A stretch of 50,316 bases of DNA from Maribacter sp. (GTDB lineage Bacteria; Bacteroidota; Bacteroidia; Flavobacteriales; Flavobacteriaceae): assembly GCA_024228355.1 (NCBI GenBank), contig JAAETN010000026.1:1-50316 (forward strand), given 5' to 3'. The notes under the pieces are model-generated. The model ran no database searches and was not told the origin of the DNA. It saw nothing but the letters and a program-made list of their open reading frames with translations. Below, in pieces: positions 5,643 to 43,201 of this stretch (positions are counted from its first letter, which is position 1; every line of letters starts with the position of its first letter). Made by a program: the position numbers and the translations under genes.

Positions 5643-6881
5643 ATGCCACAGAAACACATACTTATTATAGGCCATACTTGGCCAGAACCTACGACGACGG
5701 CTGCTGGCGGCCGTATGATGCAATTAATCGACTTCTTCCTGACCCATAATTACGACATTACCTTTGCCAGTACTGCAGCCAATAACGAATATTCGGTTGA
5801 TTTAAGTGCATCGGATATCAAAACGGAGAGCATTGTCTTGAATGATTCCAGTTTTGATGATTTTATAAAAAAATTGAATCCAAATATTGTGCTTTTCGAC
5901 CGTTTTGTGACAGAAGAGCAGTTTGGTTGGCGTGTGGCTAAATTTACACCTGAAGCCATTCGTATACTAGATACCGAGGATTTACATTCACTTCGTCAGG
6001 TGCGTAAAGAACTATTTAGATCCAATATTGAATTTACTCCTTCAAAATGGTTGCAAAACGATATTACAAAGCGTGAAGTGGCCTCCATCTACCGTTGTGA
6101 CCTATCATTGATTATATCTACTTATGAGATGAACTTGCTGACCGAGCTAATCAAGATCGATGAACGCCAGTTGCTACATCTGCCATTCCAATTGAGCAAA
6201 ATTGAAAATACCCAAATAGCCAGATGGCCAGGCTTTAATGAACGAAAAGACTTTATCTGTATAGGCAATGGCAAACATGCCCCGAATGTTGATGCCATTA
6301 AATGTTTGAAAACAGAGATTTGGCCATTGATACGAAAGTCCTTACCAATGGCCAATCTTCATATTTATGGTAGTTATCTGACCGAACAGTTAAGGCAAAT
6401 GCATAGTCGGACAACTGGATTTTATGTTGAAGGATGGGTCGAAAACATTACGAAAGTAATGGGGCAGCATCGAATCAACCTGGCTCCCTTGCGATTTGGT
6501 GCAGGAATCAAAGGAAAATTAATCGATGCCATGCTATGCGGTACTCCCAATGTGACCACCAGTATTGGGGCGGAGGGGATGCATGGGCAATTACCATGGA
6601 ATGGAAGTATTGAGGATTCTCCCGAATCATTTGCAGAGGCTTCGATAGATTTATACCAAAATGAATCCAATTGGCAATCTGCCCAATCGAACGGAATTGA
6701 AATTATCAATAAGCTTTATAATAAAAAGCAACTGGATGAAATCCTGAAGAATAAGATAAAAGTCATTCAAAGTAGCCTACAGCAGCATAGAAACCAAGAC
6801 TTCATTGGTTCACTTTTGATGCATCATTCCCTGGCAAGTACCAAGTACCTATCAAAATGGATTGAAGAAAAGAACAGATAA
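5643..6881 (+). CDS. Glycosyltransferase, GT4-like
   Basis: A 412-aa GT-B-fold protein. The N-terminal lobe opens with HILIIGHTWPEPTTTAAGGR. The C-terminal lobe carries GWVENI and the donor-binding stretch APLRFGAGIKGKLIDAMLCG, followed by TSIGAEGM, the acid-rich E motif that contacts the nucleotide sugar. It should transfer a sugar from an activated donor in the cytoplasm; the acceptor cannot be told from sequence. No other polysaccharide genes adjoin it, so a role in a surface polymer is only a guess. Start at ATG 5643. Confidence 0.85.
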   Translation: MPQKHILIIGHTWPEPTTTAAGGRMMQLIDFFLTHNYDITFASTAANNEYSVDLSASDIKTESIVLNDSSFDDFIKKLNPNIVLFDRFVTEEQFGWRVAKFTPEAIRILDTEDLHSLRQVRKELFRSNIEFTPSKWLQNDITKREVASIYRCDLSLIISTYEMNLLTELIKIDERQLLHLPFQLSKIENTQIARWPGFNERKDFICIGNGKHAPNVDAIKCLKTEIWPLIRKSLPMANLHIYGSYLTEQLRQMHSRTTGFYVEGWVENITKVMGQHRINLAPLRFGAGIKGKLIDAMLCGTPNVTTSIGAEGMHGQLPWNGSIEDSPESFAEASIDLYQNESNWQSAQSNGIEIINKLYNKKQLDEILKNKIKVIQSSLQQHRNQDFIGSLLMHHSLASTKYLSKWIEEKNR

Positions 6882-25962: not shown

Positions 25963-26133
25963 TGAGGTGCTTCAAATAATTTGTGGAAGGTATCTACTTT
26001 AATAAATTTTATACCTTCTTAACGAAAAAACTGTCGTTTTAATATAAGTTAACACCCCCTAAATATTTTTATTTTACATCGGTGTGATTATTTTGTTGCT
26101 TTGGACACTAATAGACCAAACCAATACCAGTAC

Positions 26134-26619
26134 ATGGATAGGGAGAATGAATTTGTTCAGGTTATAAGACAGAACGAAGGTGTAATATTTAAGATTACCA
26201 CAATTTATACTGATAATAGGGAAGACCAGCAGGATCTATACCAAGACATTGTTTATCAGTTATGGAAATCTTTTGATTCTTTTCGGAATGAATCAAAATT
26301 TAGCACATGGATGTATCGCATAGCCTTGAACACTGCTTTAACACGGATAAAAAAGAATAAACGTAAGGGACATTCGGTAGCTATTGAGAAGGTAGTACTA
26401 CGTAAAACGGAGTTTTACGATACAGTATTTGAAGAGCGGGTAAAAATGCTATATGATCAAATACATCAACTCAATATTTTGGAAAAGGGTATTATGTTGT
26501 TACTGTTAGAGGGCAAAAAGTATGATGAAATAGCAGAAATAACAGGAATGACTTCCAGTAATATCGGTACTCGTATTTCTCGTATCAAAGAAAAATTAAA
26601 ATCACAGATGGTTAAATAA
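26134..26619 (+). CDS. ECF-type RNA polymerase sigma factor
   Basis: A 161-aa sigma factor from ATG 26134. The frame is open from a TTG at 26101, but that TTG lies inside a promoter-like TTGCTTTG, so the later start is preferred. Region 2 contains DLYQDIVYQLWKSFDSFRNESKFSTWMYRIALNTAL. Region 4 contains the helix-turn-helix KKYDEIAEITGMTSSNIGTRISRIKEKL. It should redirect polymerase to a small regulon. The membrane protein that starts 7 bases downstream is its probable partner. Confidence 0.9.
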   Translation: MDRENEFVQVIRQNEGVIFKITTIYTDNREDQQDLYQDIVYQLWKSFDSFRNESKFSTWMYRIALNTALTRIKKNKRKGHSVAIEKVVLRKTEFYDTVFEERVKMLYDQIHQLNILEKGIMLLLLEGKKYDEIAEITGMTSSNIGTRISRIKEKLKSQMVK

Positions 26620-35484: not shown

Positions 35485-35519
35485 AAAGGAGGCATACGTT
35501 ATAATCGTATACCCCCTTT
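35485..35519 (-). terminator. Hairpin closing the microprotein array
   Basis: AAAGGAGGCATACG (35485-35498) pairs with CGTATACCCCCTTT (35506-35519) with two mismatches around TTATAAT. It lies 42 bases past the degenerate fourth copy and would terminate a minus-strand array transcript. Confidence 0.55.
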
Positions 35520-35560: not shown

Positions 35561-35677
35561 TTAATGACTATAGTTTCTGAATTCCGACTAACGTACTCTT
35601 TTGCTGTCCCTAAAGTCAGAAAATTAGGAATGTTTTCTAGATTCAGTTGGTGTCTGTGATTTTAATATCTATGACAT
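35561..35677 (-). pseudogene. Degenerate fourth copy of the 37-aa microprotein
   Basis: Reading from 35677 on the minus strand, the frame aligns with copy 3 (TPTESRK, SDFRDSKRVR, SEFRNYSH), but three in-frame stops interrupt it: TAG near the start, TAA in the middle and TAG where copies 1-3 have the Trp codon TGG. The similarity in frame across its full length shows it was once coding. It is the last unit of the array before the closing hairpin. Confidence 0.75.
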
Positions 35678-35742
35678 GCTGTTTTGTTTAAACAGCCCTT
35701 AAGTAAATTCAATATTTGGCTTTCTTTCTAGTTTTTGTAGAG

Positions 35743-35856
35743 CTATCGTATATAGCTTCTATATTCGGCCCAACGTACTCTTTTACTGTCTCTGAAATTT
35801 GAAAAATTGGAGTACTTTCTTGCTTCTGTCGGTGTTTTACTTATTGTTGCTTTCAT
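35743..35856 (-). CDS. Cationic microprotein, copy 3 (37 aa)
   Basis: ATG 35856 to TAG 35743, exactly 37 codons like copies 1 and 2. The product starts MKATISKTPTEARK, continues YSNFSNFRDSKRVRWAEY and ends RSYIR. It shares M[KR]A[ST]I, TE[AT]R, FS, [KR]D[ST]KRV, WA and YR with the others, while many codons differ at third positions (AGT/ACT, AGA/AGG, GTA/GTT). It is strongly basic, with no Cys, signal peptide or membrane segment. A 63-base spacer with an A-rich leader separates it from copy 2. Unknown function; likely nucleic-acid or membrane contact given the charge. Confidence 0.6.
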   Translation of the reverse strand: MKATISKTPTEARKYSNFSNFRDSKRVRWAEYRSYIR

Positions 35857-35919
35857 GATTTCTGTTTTATACCCTGATACGTGTTCAGGTTTGTTTTTTG
35901 ATCTGATGATGATTCTTGA

Positions 35920-36033
35920 CTAGTGATTATAATTTCTATATCCTGCCCACTGAACCCTTTTAGTGTCTTTAAAAGTTGAGAAGTATGAATTAACTCTCGT
36001 TTCTGTTACTGTTTTTTTGATTGATGCTCTCAT
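35920..36033 (-). CDS. Cationic microprotein, copy 2 (37 aa)
   Basis: ATG 36033 to TAG 35920. It begins MRASIKKTVTETRVNS, then YFSTFKDTKRVQWAGY and RNYNH. It is closest to copy 1 (same SIxxTVTE and KDTKRV) and has Lys/Arg exchanges that keep the charge. The 47-base spacer to copy 1 ends in AAAAAACAACA just before the ATG. The same length, the same start context and conservative substitutions between copies argue for real, selected small genes rather than chance repeats. Confidence 0.62.
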   Translation of the reverse strand: MRASIKKTVTETRVNSYFSTFKDTKRVQWAGYRNYNH

Positions 36034-36080
36034 GATTGTTGTTTTTTGAATGTTGTTGAATCTTTGTTTGTAGTTTGCAA

Positions 36081-36194
36081 TTAGCGATTATAGTTTCTAT
36101 ACTCTGCCCAACGAACTCTCTTAGTGTCTTTTAAGCTTGAAAAAAATGAATTTGTTCTTGCTTCTGTTACTGTTCTTCTGATTGATGCTTTCAT
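36081..36194 (-). CDS. Cationic microprotein, copy 1 (37 aa)
   Basis: ATG 36194 to TAA 36081. It begins MKASIRRTVTEARTNS, then FFSSLKDTKRVRWAEY and RNYNR. It carries ten Lys/Arg against three Asp/Glu, so the net charge is about +7. It starts 12 bases after the stop of the 61-aa ORF and heads the repeated units. Array units are about 160-180 bases apart. I know of no family with this sequence; a database search of the 37 residues would be decisive. Confidence 0.62.
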   Translation of the reverse strand: MKASIRRTVTEARTNSFFSSLKDTKRVRWAEYRNYNR

Positions 36195-36206
36195 GATTTA
36201 ATATTT

Positions 36207-36392
36207 TTAGTTGTTTCTTGTTTTGTTTTCAATTCTAATGTCATACAATCTATCTGTGTTCCAACCAGTACCTATTTTATAATAAATTCTTGGTCTTAAT
36301 TGATGAGGATGAATAGTTTCCATTTTAATTGTTTTTGATTGACTTACAACTAATAGACGAGAAGGAACTAGTTTTGTTACAGTACTATGCAT
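36207..36392 (-). CDS. Leading 61-aa ORF of the microprotein array
   Basis: ATG 36392 to TAA 36207. The first 23 residues (MHSTVTKLVPSRLLVV...) precede an internal Met at 36323 that would give a 38-aa protein, METIHPHQLRPRIYYK..., of the same size as the array members and with a similar A-rich leader (AAAAACAATTAAA). The sequence is basic but does not align with the 37-aa copies. It probably belongs to the same transcript because copy 1 starts 12 bases after it. The exact start is undecided. Confidence 0.45.
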   Translation of the reverse strand: MHSTVTKLVPSRLLVVSQSKTIKMETIHPHQLRPRIYYKIGTGWNTDRLYDIRIENKTRNN

Positions 36393-36751
36393 AAAAAGGT
36401 ACTATTTTATATAATATTTAACAATATTCTTTTGCGCTAGGGGATGAGAAATAAATGTAACACACTGATAAACAGATTTATAAATTTGAAAAAGTTATAA
36501 TAGTCAATTAAATGTTAATATTTAGGAAAATGTATAATTAGTAGTTTTGAACACTAATGAGGAGTGCTTGCAGTATTTATTTCCGAGATTAAATCATTAC
36601 TATATGAGATCAAGAATAAAATGATAAAACAATAATTTAATGGAAAGTTATACTTATACATTGCAATTTGTTTAAGCCCAAGGTAATCATCAAATTCTCA
36701 TTTTATAAGATAAATCAATGTTAAATATCCATACGATTGATTAAAATCATT
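36393..36751. other. AT-rich divergent spacer with promoters
   Basis: About 360 bases with no ORF of note. It must hold the promoter of the minus-strand microprotein array and leads into the promoter of the YtfI-like gene. The heptamer GCGCTAG occurs near both ends (36435-36441 and 36753-36759), which could be a shared control site. Confidence 0.4.
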
Positions 36752-40867: not shown

Positions 40868-41060
40868 TCTGTGATTAAAAATCGGATATCAATCGAATTT
40901 TAAGTATTCTTTATCACTTCAAAAAAAAAATCAAAAAAATGATAAATGTCAGTTGTTAAGAACAACTTCCATAGTAATTTTGACTAATTATTTAAATGGC
41001 ATATCATACGCATTATATGGGTATGGTTTCTACAATACGAATAGAATAAAAGCAATTACC

Positions 41061-42164
41061 ATGGAGAAAACAAACAAATTTTCAACAGTATTCCAAGGAT
41101 TGTCAATCCTTGTTTTCCTAACAGTTTTTATGGTTGTAAAAAGCTGTAAAGAGATTGAGAAAGAGGCTCCTGATGCCTTAAAAACCGAATTAACCAAGAA
41201 TTTTGAAACAGTGATATGGAATATCAAGGCTATTCATCCTGATGGTAGGTTAATAGACGTAAAGGCAATTGATAAGGATGGGGATATTTATGGTGTTAAG
41301 GCCGTTCAGAGTACTGCGCAGCGCAGTTTTATTGATGTGAAGGCATTGGTAGGTGAACACCAATTACCAGTTAAGCTATTGGTAAGTAGCGATAAGTATA
41401 CTAGGGTAAAGGCATTAGCAGATGACGGTAGTGTGTATGATATAAAAGCATTGACACCAGAAGGCGATACTTTGGATGTCAAAGGAGTCAGTCGTACGAA
41501 AAACATTATCCATATAAAAGCAATTAATAAAGCAGGAGAATTTTATGGTATAAAAGCTATTTCACCTGAAGGAAAGCTCAATGATGTGAAAGGGGTCAAA
41601 ATGACTGATAAGCAAACAGAGACAGTCATTAATGGACATGCAGTATACGCTCATATAAAAGCACTCCCGCAAGCAGGTATAGCCACTAACAATGGGCGAT
41701 GGCATATCAAGGCTTTTCATCCTGAAGGTATAACACTTGATATTAAGGCATTTGATCCTGAAGGAAAGAAATACGATGTAAAGGCTATTCAGGATTCATA
41801 TCAACGCAGCCTTTTGGATATCAAGGCAATTGACGGAGATAACATTTTGCCTATAAAAATGATTGTTAGTAAGGATAAATATGCTCCAATTAAAGCTATT
41901 TCCAAGGATGGTATTTTATTTGATGTCAAGGCATTAACACCTGATGGTCGAAAATTAGACGTTAAAGGTGTTGAACGTGTTGGGAACATAGTACACGTAA
42001 AGGCCATTAATAAAGATGGTGATTTTTATGGTGTTAAAGCTATTTCACCGGATGGGGAATTGAATGATGTTAAAGGGGTTAAAATAAATAAAGATGATTT
42101 GGAGACCGAAATAAACGGTCAAAAAGTGTTCGCCCATGTAAAGGCAATTCCACAAGTATATTAG
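41061..42164 (+). CDS. Lipoprotein of VKAI-type tandem repeats
   Basis: A 367-aa protein from ATG 41061 (open frame upstream to 40953 lacks a signal). A hydrophobic segment ends in VKSC, a possible lipidated Cys. The rest consists of about 20-residue units of the form hxVKAIxxDGxxYDVKA or DVKGV, repeated at least fifteen times. Two long halves (about residues 52-205 and 211-366) align along their length: HPDGRLIDVKAI with HPEGITLDIKAF, SSDKYTRVKALADDG with SKDKYAPIKAISKDG, and INGHAVYAHIKALPQ with INGQKVFAHVKAIPQ. The regular Lys-Ala beta-strand pattern suggests a beta-solenoid or propeller-like surface protein. I do not recognise a named family. Confidence 0.75.
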   Translation: MEKTNKFSTVFQGLSILVFLTVFMVVKSCKEIEKEAPDALKTELTKNFETVIWNIKAIHPDGRLIDVKAIDKDGDIYGVKAVQSTAQRSFIDVKALVGEHQLPVKLLVSSDKYTRVKALADDGSVYDIKALTPEGDTLDVKGVSRTKNIIHIKAINKAGEFYGIKAISPEGKLNDVKGVKMTDKQTETVINGHAVYAHIKALPQAGIATNNGRWHIKAFHPEGITLDIKAFDPEGKKYDVKAIQDSYQRSLLDIKAIDGDNILPIKMIVSKDKYAPIKAISKDGILFDVKALTPDGRKLDVKGVERVGNIVHVKAINKDGDFYGVKAISPDGELNDVKGVKINKDDLETEINGQKVFAHVKAIPQVY

Positions 42165-42283: not shown

Positions 42284-43201
42284 ATGCCAAAGTCTCAAAA
42301 TCCTTTACTTGTTATATTGGCTTTTTTCGCTATCTATGTCATTTGGGGGTCTACCTATTTATTAAATAAGATTGCGGTCCTTGAACTACCTCCTTTTATG
42401 TTGGCATCTATACGATTTGTAGTTGCTGGAATTTTGATATTCATTATTGCCAAATTCATGGGTAAAAGTATCACAATTACCTGGCGACAACTTAAGAATA
42501 CCATAATTGCCGGGTTTTTATTTTTATCCTTTGGCAATGGGGTGGTGGTATGGGCCTTAAAATTTGTGGATAGCGGTTTTGCCGCTTTGGAAATATCGGC
42601 CCAACCTTTGATCATTCTTTTGCTTATGCGCATATTACAGGGCAAGAAAATACAAATGATGTCTTTTATTGGTGTGATTCTGGGTTTTATTGGTATTTAC
42701 CTTTTGGTAAGTCAAAAACAAATAATCAGTCAGGAAAATTCAATTCTTGGAATGCTGATGATTTTTGTATGTATGTTGAGCTGGGGTTATGGAAGTCTTT
42801 TTGTCGGCAAGGCAGATTTGCCGCGTAATTATTTTGTGAATACGGGATATCAAATGTTAACCGGGGGTATTATGTTAGCAATTGCAAGTTTCATATTTGG
42901 AGAAAAGTGGACATATCCATTGGAGTGGAGCGTGTCAGTACAATATTCCATGATTCTCTTGATTGTTTTCGGTAGTATTGTGGCCTTCACTTCCTTTAAC
43001 TATTTACTAAAAGTTGTTTCTCCGGAAAAAGTGGCCACGAGCACTTACGTAAACCCGATAATTGCTTTGATTTTGGGCTGGTATTTTTTAGATGAACAAA
43101 TTACATTACAGTCGATAATAGCGGCCGTGATATTGCTGACAGGGGTATATTTCATCAATACAAAAAGAAAATTCGTGGTTTTTTCAAGATTTTTCAGGTA
43201 G
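42284..43201 (+). CDS. EamA/DMT-superfamily transporter
   Basis: A 305-aa inner-membrane protein with ten predicted transmembrane helices in two EamA repeats. The first repeat begins FFAIYVIWGSTYLLNKIAV and the second starts near MLMIFVCMLSWGYGSLF, with the typical late SPEKVATSTYVNPIIALILGW. DMT-family members export amino acids or metabolites; the substrate is not visible. It is monocistronic, with TATCTTTA near 42240 as a possible -7 box. Confidence 0.87.
   Translation: MPKSQNPLLVILAFFAIYVIWGSTYLLNKIAVLELPPFMLASIRFVVAGILIFIIAKFMGKSITITWRQLKNTIIAGFLFLSFGNGVVVWALKFVDSGFAALEISAQPLIILLLMRILQGKKIQMMSFIGVILGFIGIYLLVSQKQIISQENSILGMLMIFVCMLSWGYGSLFVGKADLPRNYFVNTGYQMLTGGIMLAIASFIFGEKWTYPLEWSVSVQYSMILLIVFGSIVAFTSFNYLLKVVSPEKVATSTYVNPIIALILGWYFLDEQITLQSIIAAVILLTGVYFINTKRKFVVFSRFFR

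Follow-up and report, generated by a model that had tools for sequence, protein, structure and literature searches.

A tandem microprotein array of Maribacter as a probable PadR-repressed, ECF-driven output of an envelope-stress network in Flavobacteriaceae

Introduction

PSP-type responses protect the cell membrane, and to our knowledge few targets of their PadR-HAAS-PspC branch have been described. That branch was proposed from comparative genomics, HAAS-PadR together with PspC being presented as an envelope-stress module and PSP partner (PMC11237479). In Listeria, the sigC operon is under the PadR repressor LstR and is tied by the authors to envelope-acting compounds (PMC6624303). These two systems are the closest precedents found for the locus described here, a tandem array of genes for basic proteins of 37 amino acids (aa) in a 50,316-nt stretch of Maribacter sp. 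DNA (contig JAAETN010000026.1, assembly GCA_024228355.1). This stretch, referred to as the window, is one whole contig of a 4.7-Mb assembly. On the basis of sequence comparison, the operon containing the array is probably a PadR-repressed output module, driven by an extracytoplasmic function (ECF) sigma factor, within a PSP-like network that responds to envelope stress in Flavobacteriaceae. It contains members of two families of short proteins; the first of these, family A, forms tandem arrays at more than one locus in a genome, and the order of its sub-types is conserved across species of one genus.

The likeness to the HAAS-PadR/PspC module lies in the operator, since the window array carries that of an operon with DUF4870 and padR genes, joined by a PspC-HAAS gene in one locus (L259). 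The module is, however, described without microprotein arrays or a second ECF input in the part of the report at hand (PMC11237479), and its genomic location differs from that of the arrays. The sigC/LstR system (PMC6624303) similarly combines a sigma-factor positive loop with PadR repression, but it belongs to another phylum, involves other genes and, as far as the accessible text goes, is described without a microprotein array. The SM6 promoters of Flavobacterium psychrophilum resemble that of the array in having a CGT-type −10 element ascribed to ECF sigma factors, and an ECF/anti-sigma pair is among their targets; in the available sections of the source, however, these targets are type IX secretion system and envelope genes rather than tandem microproteins, and the SM6 sigma factor may differ from the one proposed for the arrays (PMC9723704).

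Results and discussion

Coding evidence for family A

Proteins of 37–38 aa are often skipped by annotation. A model of family A collected 202 members in 73 distinct loci (defined by identical protein sets; partial overlaps may remain). The length is 36–38 aa in 190 members, some of the shorter ones being cut at contig ends or assigned a wrong start codon. Codon analyses covered the 170 members of exactly 37 codons, whose reading frame is stop-free by construction. The other two forward frames hold stops in 168 and 164 of these members, and the mismatch rates at codon positions 1, 2 and 3 are 0.28, 0.31 and 0.49, respectively. The pooled ratio of nonsynonymous to synonymous divergence (dN/dS) was 0.28 over 4385 pairs of moderate synonymous divergence, with dN lower than dS in 4128 of these non-independent pairs. 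Upstream of the start codons, A occupies position −12 in 163/170 members, −11 in 162/170 and −3 in 148/170. This A-rich context fits the non-Shine-Dalgarno initiation reported for the group (PMC9723704). The array is thus real and not a chance arrangement, and family A is under selection at the protein level. The original prediction had argued for such selection, and a dN/dS near 1, which would have spoken against it, was not found.

The conserved core of the family is TE.R....FS.FK.SKR..WA.YR, and the net charge (K+R minus D+E) has a median of +7 (range +2 to +9). AlphaFold2, run with 134 sequences, predicted helices at residues 9–22 and 25–35, with a mean local confidence (pLDDT) of 75.5 and a global score (pTM) of 0.33. 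Neither predicted helix was amphipathic beyond shuffled sequences in 141 distinct proteins (mean z −0.47 and +0.12), and mean hydrophobicity was low. The claim that the proteins belong to no named family held for the libraries searched: 44 members compared with each of Pfam and NCBIfam gave nothing significant (best E-value about 0.08), nor did a family profile against PDB sequences (best E-value 0.19), and two family A proteins and one of family B had no significant match in PHROGs. A defence system was considered and dropped, PADLOC returning no match for one protein of each family. Neither family was described in the open-licence literature as covered by a word search of titles and abstract beginnings, and a small-protein catalogue may contain such sequences without comment (PMC11364881).

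An operator shared with padR operons

The main clue, which the original prediction overlooked, is the regulatory context. A near-invariant promoter and leader, termed type 1 (up to 3 mismatches, one core intact), lies within 500 nt upstream in 51/73 loci; its consensus, TGtTAAAtattanATAAaAtAGTACCTTTTtaTnCATAGTACTGTAACAAAA-N11-TCGTCTatta, precedes either the array or a family B gene. All but one of these 51 loci have at least two units; of the 22 that lack the motif, 13 are single units. Most type-1 array promoters also keep an upstream element with TGTTAAAT, and similar TGTTAA repeats stand before the operators of padR operons.

The palindromic operator reads AGTAC-N9-CATARTAC, and the window site matches it exactly; the exact core AGTAC-N9-CATARTA is found in 45/51 type-1 promoters. 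The same palindrome precedes a padR-containing operon whose first gene encodes a DUF4870 protein, the gene order having been read in L252, L259 and L269. A PadR orthologue was found in 34/34 genomes. Among 31 padR loci (30 of the 34 orthologue loci plus L259, itself found by the motif), 30 have the operator core upstream of padR with no more than one mismatch, 19 of them exactly, against a shuffled expectation of 1.7%; in the remaining one (G037) the operator stands in front of the DUF4870 gene, at a distance of 1.74 kb upstream of padR. The exact operator gave 20 matches in ten genomes, corresponding to 15 arrays (that of the window included), four padR operons and one unrelated coding region, while the reversed pattern gave 5. 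The figure of four is a lower bound, since many padR sites, including that of the window genome, carry one mismatch. This near-exclusive sharing between padR operons and microprotein arrays would make the arrays a concrete output of the PadR-HAAS-PspC branch. A first version of the operator pattern, with the wrong spacing, was noise (63% of shuffles matched it) and was replaced by the spacing taken from padR-operon and array sequences.

An ECF-type promoter shared with an ECF sigma gene

Across 6 genomes of the genus, the promoter pattern TGTAAC-N16-CGTCT matched 35 times and its reverse 5 times. One recurrent site precedes a gene for a 169-aa ECF sigma factor, as read directly in 5 genomes and indicated by a near-identical site sequence in the sixth. 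In three loci read further, this gene is followed by one for a 139-aa putative anti-sigma factor, named by its position (one hydrophobic segment, no Pfam match), and the third gene of the operon encodes a DUF4252 protein in the one case tested. An orthologue of the sigma factor (E-value ≤ 1e-40) is present in 28/30 genomes, including 15/15 with arrays. In other genera, TGTAAC-N16-CGTC, which the window promoter shares with the ECF gene's own promoter, stands before this gene exactly in 23 of 27 loci, with one mismatch in 3, and is absent in 1; in a 28th locus the gene could not be placed. The genes behind other recurrent sites encode a protein of 111–112 aa whose start is signal-like, one of 460 aa and a DUF4870 protein; several sites have no evident gene (L184, L204, L210), as expected of a short pattern. 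Pfam matches among the linked proteins were Sigma70_r2/r4, DUF4252, DUF4870, PadR and PspC+HAAS. An ECF-like gene inside the window (26101–26619) was dropped as candidate regulator because the motif points to another ECF factor, encoded outside it.

DUF4870-type genes were seen both under the ECF motif (L202, L205, L211) and as first genes of padR operons (L252, L259, L269, L300), with Pfam run on one of each; the ECF and PadR systems may therefore share a target type.

A possible further input in some relatives

Twelve arrays have a gap of 134–150 nt between two units (285 in L114); with two gaps in L111, these make thirteen, and a comparable leader is present in four additional loci. Repeats of the form ACA[AG][TC]T[GCT], a motif chosen after the stretches had been seen, stand exactly 21 apart in 14 of the 17 stretches, compared with none in 200 rounds of shuffling. 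Downstream of the repeats, TTTG occupies the place of the sigma-A −7 box in 13/17. We take the spacing of 21, two helical turns, to mark a LytTR-type site. These features suggest a second, LytTR-type input into the arrays of some relatives; the window array has no such gap between its units. Promoter-like gaps of 134–136 nt, with direct repeats (21 nt apart in most) and TTTG, were read in L111, L112, L113, L115, L122, L125, L130, L147 and L151. In L058, the spacer between units 2 and 3 contains simple ATCATCA repeats.

Proposed working and alternative explanations

In an unstressed cell, PadR would occupy AGTAC-N9-CATARTAC and cover the −35 element; since the right half-site of the operator abuts this element, the bound repressor should block the ECF polymerase. 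Envelope stress would take PadR off the operator and separate the ECF sigma factor from the anti-sigma protein, after which transcription would start at TGTAAC-N16-CGTCT, the two inputs forming an AND-type gate. The internal LytTR-like promoters in the arrays of several relatives would feed a further signal into the same products. Inspection by eye showed neither a signal peptide nor a membrane helix in the products, which are probably cytosolic effectors; a helical hairpin with basic and aromatic residues might let them act on a fixed partner, either protein or nucleic acid. This last step is a guess, and any single class of partner is doubtful. For the proposal that families A and B together are the main second target of PadR-HAAS-PspC in Flavobacteriaceae, and thus a new class of PSP-type effectors that are many-copy, specialised by position and gated by PadR and ECF (by LytTR too in some species), we consider the case evenly balanced.

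Several observations weigh against control of the arrays by PadR and ECF as set out above. The type-1 motif is missing from 22/73 loci; four of these are degenerate or partial (L059, L061, L063, L107), and the others have sigma-A-like or LytTR-like leaders where readable, with no PadR operator seen. Such control is therefore not universal to family A; in Euzebyella (L107) the ECF motif occurs without the operator. Neither regulator is dedicated to the arrays, PadR being present in 14/14 array-less genomes and the ECF gene in 13/15. The padR site is one mismatch from the core in 4/5 genomes of the genus, that of the window included, and PspC-HAAS was seen beside padR in L259 only, the other stretches ending before that position. 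Moreover, the operator pattern was fixed after the sites had been seen, and the genomes are related, so the counts are not independent. Four of the single units (L034, L036, L044 and L047) occupy one conserved place and have a different leader, which is sigma-A-like and preceded by a conserved sequence of its own.

Were another regulator to bind the palindrome, or another ECF factor to use the promoter, the assignment to envelope stress would be wrong. Several ECF sigma factors can coexist in one flavobacterium, F. psychrophilum having seven (PMC9723704). We infer PadR and ECF binding solely from motif sharing, and the direction of control is likewise inferred; the ORFs and the selection on them are direct observations, as is the sharing of operator and promoter motif. 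The half-sites and their spacing, however, recur in front of padR operons at 31 loci and are otherwise almost absent from the ten genomes, and the ECF gene itself carries the promoter motif, which makes such a misassignment improbable. Far less probable still is that the array is mainly an RNA device, of leader or repeat RNA, with incidental ORFs. The near-invariance of promoter and leader could be read in this way, but the low dN/dS, the third-position bias, the conserved length and the A-rich starts are strong coding signals, and Rfam gave nothing at gathering scores; an RNA element was accordingly rejected.

Under the preferred reading of a PadR- and ECF-controlled output module, what the proteins do can be seen in more than one way. 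As basic, stress-induced microproteins they may bind nucleic acid or the ribosome and modulate translation or the nucleoid, the envelope regulators acting only as triggers. This is compatible with the regulatory finding and with the median charge of +7, the conserved KR..W..YR core and the two predicted, non-amphipathic helices. SRA and other small ribosome stress proteins are also short, basic and stress-related, but no sequence similarity between them and the array proteins was found. In addition, no ribosomal or nucleic-acid-binding family showed significant similarity in the searches above, and the structure model is weak, such that we hold this role to be possible but tentative. It is nevertheless rated above action at the membrane surface, and other protein partners are possible. 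In the membrane-surface role, the peptides would stabilise the stressed inner membrane or be secreted and membrane-active, as are the phenol-soluble modulins (PSMs) of staphylococci. PSM-alpha peptides are signal-less, short and encoded in a tandem array with a LytTR regulator, much like the array peptides and the LytTR-like repeats before some relatives' units; the envelope-stress control sites, the aromatic and basic residues, and an EamA-like permease near some loci would also agree. PSMs, however, are amphipathic and hydrophobic peptides that have a dedicated transporter for their export, whereas the array peptides are hydrophilic and, with helices no more amphipathic than shuffles, not of this kind, and the permease lies kilobases away. 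Among recurrent neighbour clusters (ORFs of at least 75 aa, 73 loci), no ABC or other dedicated exporter and no immunity gene was recognised by eye. The membrane-active role initially suggested for these peptides is weakened by the non-amphipathic helices and the low hydrophobicity, and a place at the membrane surface seems rather unlikely.

Distribution of the two families and specialisation of array copies

The original prediction hinged on homologous ORFs in related genomes, and these were found. In a sample of 99 genomes of relatives, 21 matched family A at E ≤ 1, matches weaker than about 1e-5 being probably due to chance; 14 had a best E-value of 1e-5 or better, ten of which, the window's own included, belong to its genus. 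Two of the twelve genus genomes, each 68% complete, had no match, and the 39 genomes of other families within this sample gave only two, with E-values of about 0.8. A 44-row profile matched 67/397 Flavobacteriaceae genomes at E ≤ 0.01 (55 at E < 1e-5). Matches were obtained in 4/395 genomes of a phylum sample and 3/196 of an order sample, all Flavobacteriaceae among the matches listed; absence outside this family has been only moderately tested. An 18-row subset alignment found 59 loci in a named genome collection, 23 of them Maribacter by title, the other carriers including Arenibacter, Pricia, Euzebyella, Ulvibacterium, Zeaxanthinibacter, Kriegella, Aurantibacter, Cerina, Pelagihabitans and uncultured Flavobacteriaceae. 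One unit used as query had no match in plasmid and phage records, and among viral contigs 72 stretches matched a pattern and none encoded a relative. Since the arrays also occupy several different chromosomal contexts, a mobile or phage origin was rejected as the main explanation.

In nine syntenic arrays of the genus, units of a first, middle and last type follow one another in this order, the first being doubled in three arrays and missing in one. Each of the 27 units, with types assigned by motif, scores higher against its counterparts from other species than against array neighbours of a different type. In a tree of these units, built on 37 columns only, the first type (support 100/100) and the last (98/95) were recovered, while the middle type was not a clade and the last was nested among it. 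The copies thus look specialised by type, and a reading of the tandem copies as gene dosage only was set aside.

Family B is unrelated to family A. Its members, 24 of them distinct in the loci examined, are 33–43 aa long and share a motif of about RP[RK]IYF.IG.GWNTDR.YD. It occurs in 18 of the 397 family-sample genomes, with one match in each, which in a single case contains an internal stop; every one of these genomes also belongs to the 67 that carry family A. Pfam (17 members) and PDB gave no match. The model comprises two short strands and a helix (pTM 0.32), and like that of family A is too weak for a fold search. In L156, a third small ORF of 37 aa, ending in FAWAKYKNPEY, lies between promoter and array.

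Organization of the window locus and neighbouring genes

The locus is a stand-alone operon consisting of a promoter, one family B gene, three family A genes with a decayed fourth, and a hairpin terminator (Table 1). The initial description of a tandem array was correct as to the array and too short in extent (35561–36194): the operon begins 5′ of that range, with a promoter at about 36355–36425 and the family B ORF, just before unit 1, both of which had been missed. The three intact ORFs, each of 37 codons plus a stop, were confirmed in place, and their net charges of +7, +6 and +7 agree with the value of about +7 first given. The fourth unit is indeed degenerate, its aligned part containing one TAG and one TAA in frame, with a further same-frame stop just upstream; relatives have intact units of the last type. 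The closing hairpin also stood up to analysis: it has 14 pairs, and a 56-nt stretch around it folds at −20.8 kcal/mol (z = −5.2; none of 200 shuffles as good), with a weak T-run. One further family A copy lies outside the window, at positions 6184–6294 of another contig (C129).

Table 1. Features of the microprotein operon in the window
Feature	Position	Strand	Basis
AT-rich upstream element with TGTTAAAT	36404..36425 (approximate limits)	-	Consensus of 51 type-1 promoters; padR-operon promoters
Palindromic operator AGTACCTTTTTATGCATAGTACTG	36380..36403	-	Half-sites and spacing as before padR operon
ECF-type promoter TGTAAC-N16-CGTCT	36355..36381	-	−35 abuts and overlaps right half of operator
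Family B ORF, 38 aa (METIHPHQLRPRIYYKIGTGWNTDRLYDIRIENKTRNN), first gene of operon	36207..36323	-	
Family A unit 1, 37 aa	36081..36194	-	
Family A unit 2, 37 aa	35920..36033	-	
Family A unit 3, 37 aa	35743..35856	-	
Decayed family A unit 4, in-frame stops	35564..35662	-	
Terminator-like hairpin, operon end	35485..35519	-	

Neighbouring genes, named provisionally or by eye, recurred near some of the 73 arrays but not consistently: AraC-TPR regulators were present at 13 loci, adenylate-cyclase-like genes at 12 and an ECF42-like/DGPF pair at 5. The members of this pair, a large sigma factor resembling ECF42 and a DGPF/YCII-like protein, are encoded downstream of the arrays (L054, L112, L123, L126 and L141). 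The EamA-like permease, also named by eye, is encoded within about 5 kb of 13/73 loci, mostly on the other strand, and in the window lies at 42284–43201. Close to it, at 40953–42164, the window encodes a predicted 403-aa protein with many short (V/I)KA(I/L) repeats.
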